64,000 nt of DNA, taken from NCBI RefSeq assembly GCF_000183745.1, contig NC_014761.1, positions 1,860,001 to 1,924,000 of the forward strand, read 5' to 3'. The notes under the pieces were generated by a model, which had not been told where the DNA came from, did no database searches, and saw only the letters and a list, made by a program, of their open reading frames with translations. The translations under genes and the position numbers were made by a program. Source of the stretch: Oceanithermus profundus DSM 14977. Lineage in GTDB: Bacteria; Deinococcota; Deinococci; Deinococcales; Marinithermaceae. Positions within the stretch are counted from its first letter, which is position 1. Each line of letters starts with the position of its first letter. Below, piece after piece: positions 9,974 through 54,887 of the stretch.

Positions 9974-10246
9974 ATGAAGCAAGGCATCGTCGGCCGCGTC
10001 CTCTACGTTCTCTTCGCCCTGGGAACGGCCCACCTGCTCCTGCTGGTGGGCGTGGAGGCCCAGCGCGGCTGGGCGTTGCGGCAGGAGGTCCGCATCGTCG
10101 ACGGCCAGCTAGAGGCGCTCGCCGCCGAGGTGGCGGCGCTGAAGAGCGAGCTCGCCCACGCCGACGACCCCGCCTACCTGGAGGCCAAGGCGCGCGCACT
10201 TGGCTACGTCTACCCGGAAGAGGTGCTGCGTGCCCCATCCCGCTGA
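9974..10246 (+). CDS. FtsB/DivIC-like septum-formation protein
   Basis: The 90-aa single-pass protein has a short cytoplasmic N-terminus and one membrane helix (about 8-27). An outside coiled coil rich in Leu, Ala, Glu and Val follows (about 36-60). The short C-terminal tail carries the LGYVYPEE motif typical of DivIC/FtsB proteins, which bridge FtsL and the divisome. Assignment rests on topology and the tail motif. TATAAT at 9960-9965 stands 8 nt before the ATG, so the transcript should be leaderless. The next gene overlaps its end by 17 nt. Confidence 0.72.
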   Translation: MKQGIVGRVLYVLFALGTAHLLLLVGVEAQRGWALRQEVRIVDGQLEALAAEVAALKSELAHADDPAYLEAKARALGYVYPEEVLRAPSR

Positions 10247-10511
10247 GGTCTTCTTCGAAGACGAAACCCTGACCGAGGGCCTCACCGACGACGAGGCCCG
10301 CGACCTTCTGGCCTGGCTGGTGGGACTGGCCGACGAGATGGAGGGCGAGGACCCGGCCTATATCGAACAGCTCAAGCGCCTGGGCCGGCACCTGGCGCGC
10401 CTGAGCGCCCGCTGGGGGGTGCCCGTGGGCGACCTGATCGACCTGGTGGAGATCGCCTGGGAGGACCCCGACCAGCCGCAGGGCCGCCCGCCGCGGCCCA
10501 TGCGGGCGTAA
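10230..10511 (+). CDS. small acidic protein of unknown function
   Basis: This 93-aa acidic, helical protein contains the patches TDDEARDLLAWLVG and LKRLGRHLARLSARWG and has no membrane segment or known motif. The GTG at 10230, preceded by GGAAGAGG, is chosen over the in-frame TTG at 10200. The gene overlaps the FtsB-like gene and is probably translationally coupled to it, hinting at a cell-division or growth-linked role, but this is guilt by association only. A heptamer array starts 5 nt after its stop codon. Confidence 0.65.
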   Translation: MPHPAEVFFEDETLTEGLTDDEARDLLAWLVGLADEMEGEDPAYIEQLKRLGRHLARLSARWGVPVGDLIDLVEIAWEDPDQPQGRPPRPMRA

Positions 10512-10515
10512 CGGC

Positions 10516-10550
10516 GGTGCGCGGCGCGCAGCACGTGGTCGGTAGTGGGT
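10516..10550 (+). repeat. degenerate heptamer array, block-1 type
   Basis: Five consecutive 7-mers read GGTGCGC, GGCGCGC, AGCACGT, GGTCGGT and AGTGGGT. They match the RGTRCGT units at 48961 in register and begin 5 nt after the stop codon of the preceding gene. Confidence 0.6.
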
Positions 10551-10802
10551 GAACCGATCGGGACCGGAGCGGCAAGGGGGAGGTTGGGTTGCCGCATGCG
10601 CCGGACCTCTCCTGCGGATTTCATGCCCCCTCCCACCCCCTGCCGACCGCCCCCGCTGCCGCCGTCCCCGACGAGGCGCAAAACGCCGAGACCGGGGGTC
10701 TTGGCGTTGCTGTGGGTTGCGGACGAACCGGCGCACCGTCTTCGCCTCCTGCATTTCGAGTAACCGGCCCCTAAACCGCGGGCATTAAGATTCCAGGCCT
10801 GT

Positions 10803-10819
10803 CCCGGACATGATCCGGG
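10803..10819 (-). repeat. short palindromic repeat, copy 1
   Basis: CCCGGA-CATGA-TCCGGG. Read on the minus strand it matches copy 2 (14892-14908) at all but one base of the 17-bp core, and the similarity continues into the flank (GRCAG). The two copies are inverted relative to each other around dnaE. Confidence 0.6.
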
Positions 10820-10946
10820 GCCCCACGCCGTACGCGACGCCGGGATTTCGTCACTGCAGGAAAAGCCAATAGATCTAGGGGAAGGTTTTAAATCCTTCCC
10901 TACCGTTATCAAGCGCTACGCACCATGAACCCCGCACAGACAACCG

Positions 10947-10960
10947 CCCCCCCCCCCCCC
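10947..10960 (+). repeat. homopolymer tract of 14 C
   Basis: This uninterrupted run of C residues lies in the dnaE 3' spacer. Its exact length may be a sequencing or replication-slippage variable. Confidence 0.85.
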
Positions 10961-10978
10961 ATTCTCCGTAACGAGCCC

Positions 10979-11041
10979 TCCACAGGCCACCGGCTGCAGG
11001 CCACAGGCCACGCCGTTGCTGCGCGCTACGAACTGCGTACC
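10979..11041 (-). repeat. two-block heptamer array downstream of dnaE
   Basis: Read on the minus strand, nine 7-mers follow without a slip. Block 1 is GGTACGC, AGTTCGT, AGCGCGC, AGCAACG. Block 2 is GCGTGGC, CTGTGGC, CTGCAGC, CGGTGGC, CTGTGGA. The same block order occurs at 48961-49044. The array starts 9 nt after the dnaE stop codon. Confidence 0.75.
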
Positions 11042-11050
11042 GTTCGCCGC

Positions 11051-14000
11051 TTAGAAAGGCACCACTTCCGCCTGGCCCTCGCCGCCCAGCTTGCCCGCGA
11101 GCAGCGCTTCGCGGTCGGGCAGCGAGCGCACCTCGAGCCCCTCCAGCTTTTCCAGCTCGGGCGCAACGCCGGGGTCGACGCGCACCTCGCGCGCCTCCAG
11201 AAGCGCCCAGCCCCCGGGGCCGCGCACCTTCAGATAGACGGGCACGACGCCCGGGTACTCGTCGAGCAGGCTGCGCAGGTCGAGCAACCGCTCGTCGTCC
11301 ATCAGGCTCAGGTCGAAGCCCAGCTCGAGCACCTGGGGCAGGCCGTCCAGCTCCTCGTAGAGGAAGACGTCCTGCACCATCACCCGCAGGCTCTCGCCGT
11401 CGGCGTCGGGCTCCACGTCGCAGACGGCGATGACCGGCATGTCCTCCTTGACCCGGGTCATCACCCGGTCGTAGGCGCGGCCGAAGACGACCACCTCGAG
11501 CGCCCCCGAGGCGTCGGCCAGGTTGAAGCGCGCCATCATCCCGCCCGAGCGCGTGGAGCGGCGGGTGATCTGCTCGACCATGCCCGCGAGCAGCACCCGC
11601 ACCCGCGACTTGGAGCCCGAGTTCTGCTCGTACCAGCGCGCCAGCTCGGTGACCTGGCAGGTGGCCGCCTCGGCGAGGCCGGGGTAGTGCTCGAGCGGGT
11701 GCCCGGTCACGTAGATGCCCAGGGCCTCCTTCTCGAAGCGCAGCCGGATCACCTCCTCGAGCGGCGCGGTCTCGGGCAGCGGCGGCTCGGTGAGGCCGTC
11801 GTCGAAGAGGCCGGTCAGGCCGCCCGCAGCCTTCTGCTGCTCGGCGGCGGCCCACTTGAGCAGGCCCTCCATGGCGTCGAGCATCTGGCCGCGCTCGCCG
11901 AAGGCGTCGAAGGCGCCGGCCTTGATGAGCGACTCGAGCGCCCGCTTGTTGACGTGGTGCAGGTCCACCCGCCTGAGGAAGTCGGGCAGGCTGCGGAAGG
12001 GCCCGCCCTTCTCGCGCTCGTTCAAAATGCTCTCCACGGCGCCCTCGCCCACGTTCTTGACCGCCGAAAGGCCAAAAAGGATCTCGCGCCCGACGACGCG
12101 GAAGTCGGCCCCCGAGCGGTTGATGTCGGGCGGCAGCACGTGGATGCCGCCGGCCTCGGCGTCGCGAATGTACTCGGCCACCTTGTCCGAGTTGCGGCGT
12201 TCCACCGTGAGCAGTGCGGCCATGAACTCGACCGGGAAATGGGCCTTGACGTAGGCCGTCTGGTACGAGATCAGCGAGTAGGCCGCGGCGTGCGACTTGT
12301 TGAAACCGTAGTTGGCGAAGGCCTCGAGCAGGTCGAAGATGCGGCTGGCCTCGTCGGGGGGCACGCCCCGCTTCTCGGCGCCGGTGATGAAGCGGTCGCG
12401 GTGGGCCTTCAGCTCCTCGACCTTCTTCTTGCCCATCGCGCGGCGAAGCAGGTCGGCTTCGCCCAGGGTGTAGCCCGCCACCGCGCTGGCGATCTGCATG
12501 ATCTGCTCCTGGTAGACGGGGATGCCGTAGGTCTCGGCCAGGATGGGCTCGAGCATTTCGGCGGCGTGGGGAAACTCGGCGTAGCTCACCGGCTCCTGCC
12601 CGTGGCGGCGGCGCAGGTAGGTGGGGATGTTGTCCATCGGCCCCGGCCGGTAGAGCGAGACGATGGCGATGATGTCGTGCAGCCGCTCGGGCTTGAAGGC
12701 CTTGACCGTGTTCGTCATCCCCGTGCCCTCGAGCTGGAAGACGCCCTTGGTGTCGCCGCGCCCCAGCATCTCGAAGGTCTTGGGGTCGTCGAGGGGCAGG
12801 TTGTCGTAGTCGAGCTCGACGCCCGCGGATTCCTTGACGATGCGCTTCGCTTCGTCGAGGAACGAGAGCGTGCGCAGCCCCAGGAAGTCCATCTTCAAAA
12901 GGCCCAGCGCCTCCACCGAGCCCATGTCGTACTGGGTGACGACGCCGTCGCCGCGGGTGTCGCGCATCAGCGGCACCAGGTTGGTCAGCGGCTCGTCGGC
13001 GATCACCACGCCGGCGGCGTGCACCGAGGCGTGGCGGTTGAGCCCCTCAAGGCGCTGAGCGATCTCCAGGACCTCGCGCACCGTCTCGTCCTGGCGCATC
13101 GCCGCCTTGAGCTCGGGGATCTGCTCCATCGCCCGCGCCAGCGGCAGCGGCTTGCCGAACTGCACCGGGATCAGCTTGGCCAGCTGCTCGGCGCGCTTGT
13201 ACTCGAGCCCGTAGACCCGGGCCACGTCCTTGAGCGCCGCCTTGGAGGCCAGCGTCCCGAAGGTGGCGATCTGGGCCACCTTGTCCTCGCCGTAGCGCTC
13301 GCGGACGTAGTCGATCACCTCGTCGCGGCGCACGTCCGAGAAGTCGGTGTCGATGTCGGGCATGCTCACGCGCGCGGGGTTGAGGAAGCGCTCGAAGAGC
13401 AGGCCGAACTCGAGCGGGTCGATGTTGGTGATGCGGATCGCGTAGGCCACCAGGCTGCCCGCGGCGCTGCCGCGCCCGGGCCCCACGCTGATGCCGTGGT
13501 TCTTGGCCCAGTTGATGTAGTCCTGCACGATCAGCAGGTAGCCGGGGAACCCCATCTGCTCGATCGTGCCCAGCTCGTACTCGGCCCGCGCCAACGTGGC
13601 CCAGCCGTCCCACTCCTGAACGTTGCGCACGTCGGGGAAGAAGTCCACCCGCTCCCGCGCCTTTCGGTCCAGCCGCGCGAGCTGCAGGATCAGGTCCTCC
13701 TCGTCCTCGGCCGGTTCGATCTCGAGCCGCGTCAGGTAGGCGCGGTAGAGCGCCGGGTTCACCCGGTCGGGGTAGCGCTCCAAGAGCCCCTTGAAGGTCA
13801 ATTCGCGCAGGTACTGGTTCTCGTCGCGCCCCTCGGGCAGCGGGTAACGCGGGATGCGGTAGGTCATCTTGTCGCCCACCGGCAGCTCGACGTTGCACAT
13901 CGCCGCGATCTCGGCGCTGTTGCTGAAGATCTCGTCGGGCCAGTCGGGGAGCGCCTTTTTCATTTCCTCGGGCGTCTTGACGTAGAACTCGTCGCAGGGG

Positions 14001-14719
14001 AACTTCCAGCGGTCCTCGTCGGCCAGCGTCGCCTTCGACTGGATGGCCAGGAGGACCTCGTGGGCGCGGGCGTCCTCCTGCTTGACGTAGTGGCCGTCGT
14101 TGGTGGCCACCATGCCCAGGCCGTACTTCTGCGCGAACTCGCGCAGCACGGCGTTGACCTTCTTCTGCTCCTCGAGCCCGTGGTCCTGGATCTCGATGAA
14201 GTAGCGGTCGCCGAAGATCTCCAGGTACTCGTTCAGCCGCTCCTCGGCGAGGTCTTCGCGGTCCGCCAGAATGAACTGAGGGATCTCCGCCCCCAGGCAG
14301 CCCGAAAGCGCGATGATGCCCTCGTTGTGCTCGCGCAGGATCTCGCGGTCGATGCGGGGCTTCATGTAAAAGCCCTCGAGGTAGGCCCGGCTCGCGAGCC
14401 GCACCAGGTTCTGGTAGCCCTTGAAATCCTTGGCCAATAGGGTCAGGTGGAAGTAGCCGCCGTCGAGGCCCTTGCGCATCGTGCGGTCGAAGCGGCTCTC
14501 GGCGGCCACGTAGGCCTCGTAGCCGATGATGGGCTTGACCCCGGCGGCCGTGGCCTTCTTGTAGAACTGCACCGCCCCGAAGAGGTTCCCGTGGTCCGTG
14601 GTCGCGAGCGCCGGATCGTCCGGCGTCGTCTGTTTGACCCACTGGATCAGCTCGTCCAGCTTGGCCGCGCCGTCGAGCAACGAGAACTGGGTGTGCTGGT
14701 GCAGGTGGGCGAACTTCAT
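11051..14719 (-). CDS. dnaE: DNA polymerase III alpha subunit
   Basis: The 1222-aa replicative polymerase begins with the PHP domain (MKFAHLHQHTQFSLLDG). The catalytic acidic motif PDIDTDF is at about residues 450-460. Other polymerase-core segments include GPGRGSAAGSL and YQEQIMQIA. The HhH and OB-fold regions follow, and the protein ends with a beta-binding-type C-terminus. The length matches an intein-free enzyme; inteins are known in some Thermus dnaE genes, but no extra block is seen here. TAAACT lies 6 nt before the ATG, so the start is probably leaderless. Repeat-rich spacers lie on both sides. Confidence 0.97.
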   Translation of the reverse strand: MKFAHLHQHTQFSLLDGAAKLDELIQWVKQTTPDDPALATTDHGNLFGAVQFYKKATAAGVKPIIGYEAYVAAESRFDRTMRKGLDGGYFHLTLLAKDFKGYQNLVRLASRAYLEGFYMKPRIDREILREHNEGIIALSGCLGAEIPQFILADREDLAEERLNEYLEIFGDRYFIEIQDHGLEEQKKVNAVLREFAQKYGLGMVATNDGHYVKQEDARAHEVLLAIQSKATLADEDRWKFPCDEFYVKTPEEMKKALPDWPDEIFSNSAEIAAMCNVELPVGDKMTYRIPRYPLPEGRDENQYLRELTFKGLLERYPDRVNPALYRAYLTRLEIEPAEDEEDLILQLARLDRKARERVDFFPDVRNVQEWDGWATLARAEYELGTIEQMGFPGYLLIVQDYINWAKNHGISVGPGRGSAAGSLVAYAIRITNIDPLEFGLLFERFLNPARVSMPDIDTDFSDVRRDEVIDYVRERYGEDKVAQIATFGTLASKAALKDVARVYGLEYKRAEQLAKLIPVQFGKPLPLARAMEQIPELKAAMRQDETVREVLEIAQRLEGLNRHASVHAAGVVIADEPLTNLVPLMRDTRGDGVVTQYDMGSVEALGLLKMDFLGLRTLSFLDEAKRIVKESAGVELDYDNLPLDDPKTFEMLGRGDTKGVFQLEGTGMTNTVKAFKPERLHDIIAIVSLYRPGPMDNIPTYLRRRHGQEPVSYAEFPHAAEMLEPILAETYGIPVYQEQIMQIASAVAGYTLGEADLLRRAMGKKKVEELKAHRDRFITGAEKRGVPPDEASRIFDLLEAFANYGFNKSHAAAYSLISYQTAYVKAHFPVEFMAALLTVERRNSDKVAEYIRDAEAGGIHVLPPDINRSGADFRVVGREILFGLSAVKNVGEGAVESILNEREKGGPFRSLPDFLRRVDLHHVNKRALESLIKAGAFDAFGERGQMLDAMEGLLKWAAAEQQKAAGGLTGLFDDGLTEPPLPETAPLEEVIRLRFEKEALGIYVTGHPLEHYPGLAEAATCQVTELARWYEQNSGSKSRVRVLLAGMVEQITRRSTRSGGMMARFNLADASGALEVVVFGRAYDRVMTRVKEDMPVIAVCDVEPDADGESLRVMVQDVFLYEELDGLPQVLELGFDLSLMDDERLLDLRSLLDEYPGVVPVYLKVRGPGGWALLEAREVRVDPGVAPELEKLEGLEVRSLPDREALLAGKLGGEGQAEVVPF

Positions 14720-14747: not shown

Positions 14748-14790
14748 CACGGATGTGGAGGCAGGGCCTTCACGGATGTGGAGGCAGGGC
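14748..14790 (+). repeat. two 20-bp direct repeats, 23-bp period
   Basis: CACGGATGTGGAGGCAGGGC occurs exactly at 14748-14767 and 14771-14790, separated by CTT, about 30 bp upstream of the dnaE start. It could be a binding site for a regulator or a recent duplication. Confidence 0.9.
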
Positions 14791-14891
14791 TTTCGGCCTT
14801 GCAGCCTGGCGCGTGTCGGTACGCACTTGGCGCCGAACCGAAAAGGCGAATTTCCGTCGCTCTGGGCGAGAAAACCACAGGTTCCTGATAT

Positions 14892-48960: not shown

Positions 48961-49044
48961 GGTGCGTGGTACGTGGTGCGTGGTACGTAGTACGTGGTGA
49001 TAAAGAAGTCCGTGGCTTGTAACTTGTGGCTCGTGGTGTACTGA
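48961..49044 (+). repeat. two-block heptamer array after the dppC-like gene
   Basis: Twelve 7-mers in unbroken register. Block 1: GGTGCGT, GGTACGT, GGTGCGT, GGTACGT, AGTACGT. Two divergent units follow. Block 2: CCGTGGC, TTGTAAC, TTGTGGC, TCGTGGT, then GTACTGA. It is the best-conserved copy in the window and has the same block order as the array behind dnaE. Confidence 0.85.
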
Positions 49045-49175
49045 CTTCTTCGTGGCCGTCATAGCCTTCGGTCCGGTTGCAGCGCCAAGGACGCCCTACT
49101 CCTGGGGAGGGCCGGGGAGGGGGTCGTGGGCGCCGATGGAGCCGAAGGTTCACCTTCAGCATCGTAAAAACCTAG

Positions 49176-49210
49176 ATCCCACATCCCACACCCCACTTCC
49201 CACACCCCAA
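49176..49210 (-). repeat. G-rich heptamer array (C-rich on plus strand)
   Basis: Five 7-mers on the plus strand: ATCCCAC, ATCCCAC, ACCCCAC, TTCCCAC and ACCCCAA. On the minus strand this is GTGGGRN repeated, with five G-runs of 3-4 and short loops, so a G-quadruplex is possible. It ends 56 nt before the amidohydrolase ATG. Confidence 0.85.
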
Positions 49211-54259: not shown

Positions 54260-54271
54260 GGTTATCCGGGT

Positions 54272-54334
54272 GTGGGGTGTGGGAGGTGGGGCGTGGGAAA
54301 ATACCTACCCCCTACTTCCCACCTCCCACCTCCT
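54272..54334. repeat. inverted G-rich heptamer arrays at the grpE-dnaJ junction
   Basis: On the plus strand GTGGGGT, GTGGGAG, GTGGGGC and GTGGGAA are followed, in the same 7-bp register, by AATACCT, ACCCCCT, ACTTCCC, ACCTCCC and ACCTCCT. The arms GTGGGAGGTGGG (54279-54290) and CCCACCTCCCAC (54318-54329) are a perfect 12-bp inverted repeat. The grpE stop codon (54312-54314) and last codons lie inside it. Confidence 0.85.
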
Positions 54335-54887
54335 TCTTTTTCGTTACCGCCACCCGTGCCGGGCGGATGAGCTGCTCGCCGTAGCGGTAGCCCTTCTGGT
54401 AGACCTGGGCCACCTTCTCGTCCTCCTCGCCCTCGACGATGCCGACGGCCTCGTGGACGCTGGGGTTGAAGGGTTCGCCCTCGCCGGGCACCGGCTCCAC
54501 GCCCAGGCCGCTGAGGATGCGCTGGAAGCCCTGGTGCACCGCGCGCACCCCCTCGGCAACGGCCTCGGGCTTGGCGCCGGCGTGCTCGAGCGCCCGCTCC
54601 AGGTCGTCGAGCACGGGCAGCAGGGCGCGGATGGCCTTGATCTCGCCGTCCTTGCGCGCCGCTTCCACCTCGGCCTGCATGCGCTTGCGGTAGTTGTCGA
54701 AGTCGGCCAGAAGCCGCATGTACTTGTCTTTCAAGATCTCGATCTCTTTCCGGGCCTTTGCGAGCTCGCCCTCGGCGCGCTCCAGTTCGGCGGCCACCTT
54801 CTCGGCCTCCAGGGCCACCTCGCGCTCTTCGGCCTCGACGCGCGCGTTCAGGTCGTTCTCGGGCTTCGGGGTCTGCTCCTTCGCCAT
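54312..54887 (-). CDS. grpE: nucleotide exchange factor GrpE
   Basis: The 191-aa GrpE has a long N-terminal coiled coil (about 15-75, Glu/Ala/Lys/Leu-rich). The conserved core is FDNYRKRMQAE...LLPVLDDLERAL, and the beta-wing is PFNPSVHEAVGIVEGEEDEKVAQVYQKGYRYGEQLIRPARV. It releases ADP from DnaK. The final residues, EVGGGK, are encoded by the heptamer array described at 54272-54334. A strong hairpin precedes the gene. Confidence 0.95.
   Translation of the reverse strand: MAKEQTPKPENDLNARVEAEEREVALEAEKVAAELERAEGELAKARKEIEILKDKYMRLLADFDNYRKRMQAEVEAARKDGEIKAIRALLPVLDDLERALEHAGAKPEAVAEGVRAVHQGFQRILSGLGVEPVPGEGEPFNPSVHEAVGIVEGEEDEKVAQVYQKGYRYGEQLIRPARVAVTKKKEVGGGK

Follow-up and report, generated by a model that had tools for sequence, protein, structure and literature searches.

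A heptamer array behind dnaE of Oceanithermus profundus: probable end of a worn, interspersed element found against stop codons

The dnaE locus

With 2,439,291 bases, the genome of Oceanithermus profundus 506T is divided into two contigs, of which the larger has 2,303,940 (PMC3111992). The window analyzed here, a stretch of 64,000 nt, corresponds to C2:1860001-1924000 of the chromosome; positions not marked C2 are those of the window. Within it, dnaE is read from the minus strand and ends in TAA (11053-11051), after which 9 nt (GCGGCGAAC) precede a run of nine 7-mers. Read on the minus strand from 11041 to 10979, these are GGTACGC, AGTTCGT, AGCGCGC, AGCAACG, GCGTGGC, CTGTGGC, CTGCAGC, CGGTGGC, and CTGTGGA. 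A sequence-only reading of this DNA had already reported the nine 7-mers, and when the sequence was read again, their letters and coordinates proved to be as written. However, the array that was then described is one end only of a 539-nt insert (10512-11050), which separates dnaE from a convergent neighbor (Table 1). Divided into units, the array resolves into an A block and a B block joined by a linker. It is worn, since GT is missing from the units GCGCGCA and GCAGCCG.

The protein encoded by the neighbor is matched at 100% in another Oceanithermus genome, G010 (genomes of this genus are designated G010-G014), and at 40-49% in genomes of a sister genus (tblastn). Opposite the dnaE side, the insert carries an inverted A array that begins 5 nt past the stop codon of this neighbor and ranks about 21st of 928,000 positions with a five-unit A profile. 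The insert runs from an A array to an inverted A array, and its ends are loose arrays. Between them lie two palindromic modules, both of which recur in mosaics elsewhere, and a run of 14 G, which is possibly a tract of variable length. No intrinsic terminator (a GC stem followed by a T run) was found behind dnaE within 10700-11100. As RNA, the insert folds no better than shuffled sequence (z = 0.84), and a second element within the window, at 48961, also has no excess of RNA structure over shuffles (z = -1.0). Immediately upstream of dnaE, at 14748-14794, are two copies (95% match) of a 23-bp unit.

Table 1. Features of the dnaE locus and of the second element, in window coordinates
Feature	Position	Strand	Evidence
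Convergent neighbor of dnaE, ~103 aa, conserved in related genera	10200..10511	+	tblastn; no Pfam family matched
Whole insert, 539 nt, between two stops that overlap in related genomes	10512..11050		tblastn placement
Worn inverted A array, GTGCGCG GCGCGCA GCACGTG GTCGGTA GTGGGTG	10517..10551	+	Five-unit A profile
Palindromic module CCCCGGATCATGTCCGGG	10803..10820	-	Member of the CCCCGGATCAAGTCCGGGG repeat of other mosaics (sequence comparison)
Palindromic module GGTAGGGAAGGATTTAAAACCTTCCCCTA	10875..10903	-	Also as GGTAGGGGAGGGTTTGAAACCCTCCCCTA in the mosaic at C2:278 kb (sequence comparison)
Run of 14 G inside the insert	10947..10960	-	Sequence
B block, five units, GTGGCCT GTGGCCT GCAGCCG GTGGCCT GTGGAGG	10977..11011	-	Sequence; lag-7 score 11.8; profile
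8-nt A/B linker GCAACGGC	11012..11019	-	Sequence; phase in common with the 48961 site
A block, three worn units, GTACGCA GTTCGTA GCGCGCA	11020..11040	-	Sequence; A-to-B profile
dnaE, DNA polymerase III subunit alpha	11051..14719	-	NF004226, 1354 bits, E = 0
A block of the better-preserved second element, 3-4 nt past the stop (TGA) of an oligopeptide/nickel-type ABC permease	48961..48998	+	Sequence
B block of the second element, CCGTGGC TTGTAAC TTGTGGC TCGTGGT	49012..49039	+	Sequence
Palindromic core of the second element	49040..49170	+	20 matches in the genome
Inverted C block (GTRGGRN) closing the second element	49171..49210	-	Sequence; lag-7 analysis

The heptamer family in Oceanithermus

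The arrays of this genus are built from units of three consensus types: A, GTRCGTR; B, GTRGCYY; and C, GTRGGRN. Units of one type may be wobble-equivalent, in which case a single guide RNA of fixed sequence would be able to pair with every A unit. Four GTRS units at period 7 are matched 154 times in O. profundus, compared with 8 times for the reversed pattern, and among these matches none is listed on the plasmid contig C1 (135 kb). In a continuous 464-kb sample of the genome (C2:1460001-1924000), period 7, together with 14, is the clearly enriched non-triplet period. The analysis used this sample plus chosen stretches, so the gene-context statistics given below cover these rather than the whole genome. 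G-quadruplexes were considered as a common cause of the arrays and rejected: the A and B units, the dnaE array included, have essentially only GG runs, and GGG is regular in C units only, so such structures cannot be the common feature.

The blocks have an order. Within the stretches of O. profundus that were read, A stands ahead of B 7 times and the reverse never occurs at short distance; likewise, a C array is followed by an inverted C array 17 times, and the opposite order was never seen. When all six Oceanithermus genomes are considered, about 35 distinct sites, spread over five of them, have A-to-B and about 6 have B-to-A (raw counts, in which overlapping matches are included, are 62 and 8), and A-to-B is found in none of 105 other Deinococcota. 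These arrays, together with repeated palindromic modules, form longer mosaics.

The second element illustrates the same arrangement in a better-preserved state, its plus-strand A units being GGTGCGT, GGTACGT, GGTGCGT, GGTACGT, and AGTACGT, followed by the linker. As the sequence-only reading had observed, the order of blocks at dnaE is that at 48961, and the phase of the linker is also common to the two sites. A strict 7-nt register across the linker holds only partly in the genus as a whole, where the commonest class accounts for 13 of 34 sites. The equal distance to the stop codon that had been claimed is approximate only (9 nt at dnaE, 3-4 nt at 48961), and the two loci, which had been called independent, are better described as dispersed, homologous copies. 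The central contention, that the arrays represent a defined element and not random simple repeats, is borne out by the roughly 35 sites in the A-to-B order versus about 6 in reverse.

An A-to-B profile was trained on loci outside the dnaE region and scanned over both strands of the 464 kb, a total of ~928,000 positions. The dnaE array, with 43.0 bits, ranks third among these; positions outside the arrays or fragments of the heptamer family lie at about -20 bits or lower, and in 5000 dinucleotide shuffles the score of the dnaE site was never matched (shuffle maximum, -18.6). Independently of the profile, BLAST matches the dnaE array to another A-to-B site, C2:482777 (E 4e-5). By itself, the lag-7 autocorrelation of the array (11.8) is marginal, a few segments reaching that level with control periods as well. 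Thus, the array is marginal when judged by lag-7 without the order of its blocks, but it is not marginal as an ordered A-to-B element.

Several other occurrences were recorded. A C array and an inverted C array with a 2-nt spacer, at 54268-54336, have the potential to form a long heptamer hairpin. C2:278 kb and C2:1042 kb share a 1725-bp segment that bears A and C arrays; the two copies are identical and inverted relative to each other. In addition, C arrays lie beside the 23S rRNA, between the 23S and 5S rRNAs, and after the 5S rRNA of two near-identical rRNA operons (C2:1987000-1997000); a 3.6-kb duplication flanked by arrays, which resembled an autonomous transposon, is this 23S-5S rRNA operon. 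A scan of all bacteria for eight GTRG units returned, among the matches listed, mostly ordinary near-perfect tandem repeats.

Filled and empty sites in related genomes

When dnaE and its neighbor were placed in related genomes by tblastn, five of six readable genomes of the sister genus were found to have the two genes tail to tail with a 4-nt overlap, in which CTAG provides both TAG stops; in the sixth, they are separated by a 6-nt gap. The contig of Oceanithermus G012 stops 31 nt past dnaE, and its reverse reading, RPMRA-TAG across that same CTAG, matches the RPMRA end of the neighbor in O. profundus. In O. profundus the genes lie 539 nt apart; in G010, which has no dnaE array though its two stops are apart too, the distance is 1105 nt. 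Because the relatives overlap at CTAG and O. profundus has 539 nt, the change is polarized toward gain of an intergenic region at the stop codons. Judged from these alignments, the insert was gained exactly where the stops of two facing genes overlapped, and the C-termini of both proteins were kept. In O. profundus, TAA stops stand on either side of the insert where the relatives carry CTAG, a pattern that falls short of a clean target-site duplication. CTAG, the shared stop site at which the insert landed, is itself about 6.7-fold under-represented in the 464 kb of this GC-rich genome (193 occurrences versus 1284 expected).

Filled and empty sites are also found elsewhere. Three genomes carry an insert at the 48961 locus, where G012 is empty immediately past the stop codon; a convergent pair located at 839 kb is again filled in three genomes and, with its gene ends overlapping, empty in G012. 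At another site, a mosaic of ~900 bp in G013 corresponds to ~40 bp in O. profundus. Furthermore, filled sites differ in content. At the orthologous sites located at 482 and 839 kb, the A-type array and its distance to the stop are kept and the units have wholly changed; at one intergenic site, O. profundus has inverted C arms, and G010 and G011 have inverted B arms and an inverted A array. The orthologous dnaE array of G014 retains GT where O. profundus has GC, indicating that the O. profundus copy is wearing out. Taken together, these comparisons point to a rapid turnover of array length and unit content and to a dnaE copy that is evidently in decay.

Arrays and stop codons

Arrays generally begin a few nucleotides past stop codons with the G-rich strand pointing away, and a consistent orientation toward the upstream gene is a general rule. 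Among 31 A arrays with an upstream gene in the same sense, 16 begin within 7 nt of the stop, when 1.9 would be expected from sliding the arrays within their gaps (p = 5e-5). For A and C arrays together, an ORF edge is found no more than 10 nt from the 5' (G-strand) edge in 23 of 90 cases and from the 3' edge in 2 of 92 (p = 2e-6). In these counts, arrays were located by a pattern that favors neither side, and genes by a simple gene caller, with which starts are uncertain and stops much less so. The rule extends to distant members of the phylum whose unit vocabularies differ from that of Oceanithermus. In G024, array clusters lie within 10 nt of the gene at 19 of 28 stop edges and at 1 of 14 start edges; in stretches picked for their arrays, they are present in 8 of 9 convergent gaps versus 1 of 11 divergent gaps, and whole convergent gaps are occupied, stop to stop, by ordered heptamer blocks around hairpins. 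In G099, 7 of 15 stop edges are within 10 nt of arrays. The G024 blocks (AGCNNTC, GTGGCYY, hairpins, GCGTYTT, GTACGAC, GGCGTTN, GCTATCR, CCATCGA) are largely in a 7-nt register, and in G099, GTRGTNR arrays, which often start at stops, are numerous (four units in a row are matched 419 times, the reversed control never).

The arrays could instead be under selection, as 3'-end or insulator elements that block read-through into genes at ORF edges. In this model, RNA leaving the ORF would be G-rich, and a polymerase inbound from the other side would make C-rich, G-poor RNA with a 7-nt period, which may be a plausible loading site for Rho. The edge statistics of Oceanithermus and G024, the lack of a detected intrinsic terminator behind dnaE, and the matching geometry of the repeats reported from Xanthomonas and Nostoc (Rehm et al., PMC4692102) are all compatible with such a role. 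However, many gene ends lack arrays, and dnaE of G010 and G012 manages without one; in the dnaE array, decay affects the most conserved positions; and neither the insert nor the second element folds better than shuffled RNA. Moreover, elements that occupy the gap between ORFs and have inverted arrays at their ends would give the same geometry. Thus, the geometry fits an insulator, but the decay, the absence in some relatives, and the lack of RNA structure do not demand one, and a selected role of this kind is possible, if rather doubtful.

An interspersed element as the probable origin

We consider it probable, at roughly 0.6, that the array behind dnaE is the end of a worn, lineage-specific, non-coding, MITE-like element of Oceanithermus that is found flush against stop codons. 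The identity of the element, its block order, its gain at stops, as polarized by outgroups, and its turnover and decay are established by the comparisons. Such an element would combine palindromic modules into a mosaic, with the degenerate heptamer arrays A, B, and C as its outer parts; since the G-rich strand runs inward from both ends, the arrays would act as loose terminal inverted repeats. It is non-coding, its homologous copies are many and dispersed, and both filled and empty orthologous sites are present.

The element most likely spread in a non-autonomous, MITE-like manner, leaving copies that abut stops, where it would be either tolerated or targeted. At dnaE, it would have inserted at the CTAG shared by the stops of the two convergent genes, preserving the C-termini of both, and this would have been followed by a fast turnover of array length and unit content, with this copy now in decay. 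We infer that the spread was by transposition rather than by recombination or local synthesis, and a reason for the preference for stops may be offered on similar grounds: given that CTAG is rare, an element preferring it would meet such sites mainly at stop codons. Some observations fit this history less readily. An unchanged distance to the stop with new units would also be expected from a maintained function or from local regeneration; at one intergenic site, C arms in one species stand opposite B arms in another; and G010 has no dnaE array although its stops are separated. Co-evolution of the C arms as a hairpin was rejected, since within a C pair the complementarity is slightly worse (0.76) than that to arms elsewhere (0.81); because paired arms are no better matched than others, a simple hairpin substrate is not supported.

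If heptamers had instead expanded by slipped-strand events, separately at each locus, no dispersed element would be needed. Heptamers are the commonest intergenic tandem repeats of prokaryotes (PMC6344855), and orthologous arrays do differ in unit number. On the other hand, units within one array differ yet share GTRG, when heptamer arrays elsewhere are mostly near-identical among the matches listed. Furthermore, the conservation of block order, linkers, and cores across loci, together with the gain of several hundred nucleotides, indicates homologous dispersal, and slippage as the sole origin is improbable.

A dispersed element might alternatively belong to the REP/BIME type of repeat, mobilized by a RAYT (Y1) transposase. 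The REP foot is GTAG, which resembles GTRG; GTAG tetramers are frequent in the arrays, and these are likewise palindromic, intergenic, and mosaic. However, Y1/RAYT (PF01797), the family searched when a transposase partner was sought and none identified, is absent, at the sensitivity of the search, from all six Oceanithermus genomes and from the rest of the family, though it turned up in 30 genomes elsewhere in the phylum. Mobilization by RAYT is thus very unlikely. Chance resemblance within GC-rich intergenic DNA, which the marginal lag-7 score of the locus would allow, is refuted by the shuffles and by the rank of the profile match and deserves almost no credence.

Relation to known repeats and significance

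MITEs are short, non-coding, and interspersed, with inverted ends and with filled and empty sites. The Oceanithermus element is likewise short, non-coding, and interspersed, with filled and empty sites; its inverted ends, however, are loose, degenerate arrays of variable length, and neither a target-site duplication nor a transposase family is established. Foldback elements, which are eukaryotic, have inverted ends that are long and composed of short tandem repeats; here there is resemblance only and no homology. BIMEs and REPs are intergenic mosaics of palindromic modules in which heptamer arrays are not a feature; the intergenic palindromic mosaic is shared, but the genus has no RAYT.

The STRR heptamers of cyanobacteria are near-perfect repeats of a single unit, whereas the units of Oceanithermus are degenerate and ordered in blocks. 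In both cases, the tandem heptamers are intergenic and present in many copies (STRR cited in PMC4692102 and PMC3542288). The G-rich heptamers GGGNATC and GGGGAYT of Xanthomonas and Nostoc, whose function is unknown, lie with the G-rich strand in sense just past stops or in antisense just ahead of starts and are absent from plasmids (Rehm et al. 2015, PMC4692102). The Oceanithermus arrays resemble these in their period, their intergenic location, the G-rich strand in sense near stops, the overlap with stops, and the absence of a listed match on the plasmid. They differ in having several unit types in a fixed order, units that mostly differ within an array, palindromic cores and inverted closing arrays, and A and B units without GGG. 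The TAACTGA repeats of the Beggiatoaceae are also intergenic heptamers, some of which overlap stops, but they consist of one invariant unit and lie mostly just ahead of starts (MacGregor 2015, PMC4679880). The units also differ from the WATCACW heptad of the RHH arrays, whose heptads are bound by a ribbon-helix-helix protein (omega/parS of pSM19035, PMC9499535). A survey with SPADE found that, among the intergenic tandem repeats of prokaryotes, heptamers are the most abundant, with "no clear clue" as to what they do (PMC6344855), and no paper on heptamer repeats in Deinococcota was found in the literature searched, which included few subscription titles. The Oceanithermus family is set apart by its degenerate units, fixed block order, mosaic cores, and polarized insertion.

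It is a more tentative and unlikely suggestion that there exists a class of insertion elements with degenerate arrays of strict 7-nt period as their ends, which would insert at stop codons and part convergent genes that overlap, leaving both proteins unaltered. If so, one principle, with other vocabularies, would extend to the stop-abutting heptamer mosaics of G024 and G099 and possibly to the repeats of Xanthomonas and Nostoc. The dnaE locus offers a polarized gain at a defined position, two overlapping stops, with neighboring lineages that lack the insert, which is rare for this class of repeat. The rule that arrays abut stops with the G strand pointing away is, moreover, common to distant lineages with different units. 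With these features combined, an origin by insertion and selection for a function at the 3' end become separately testable.
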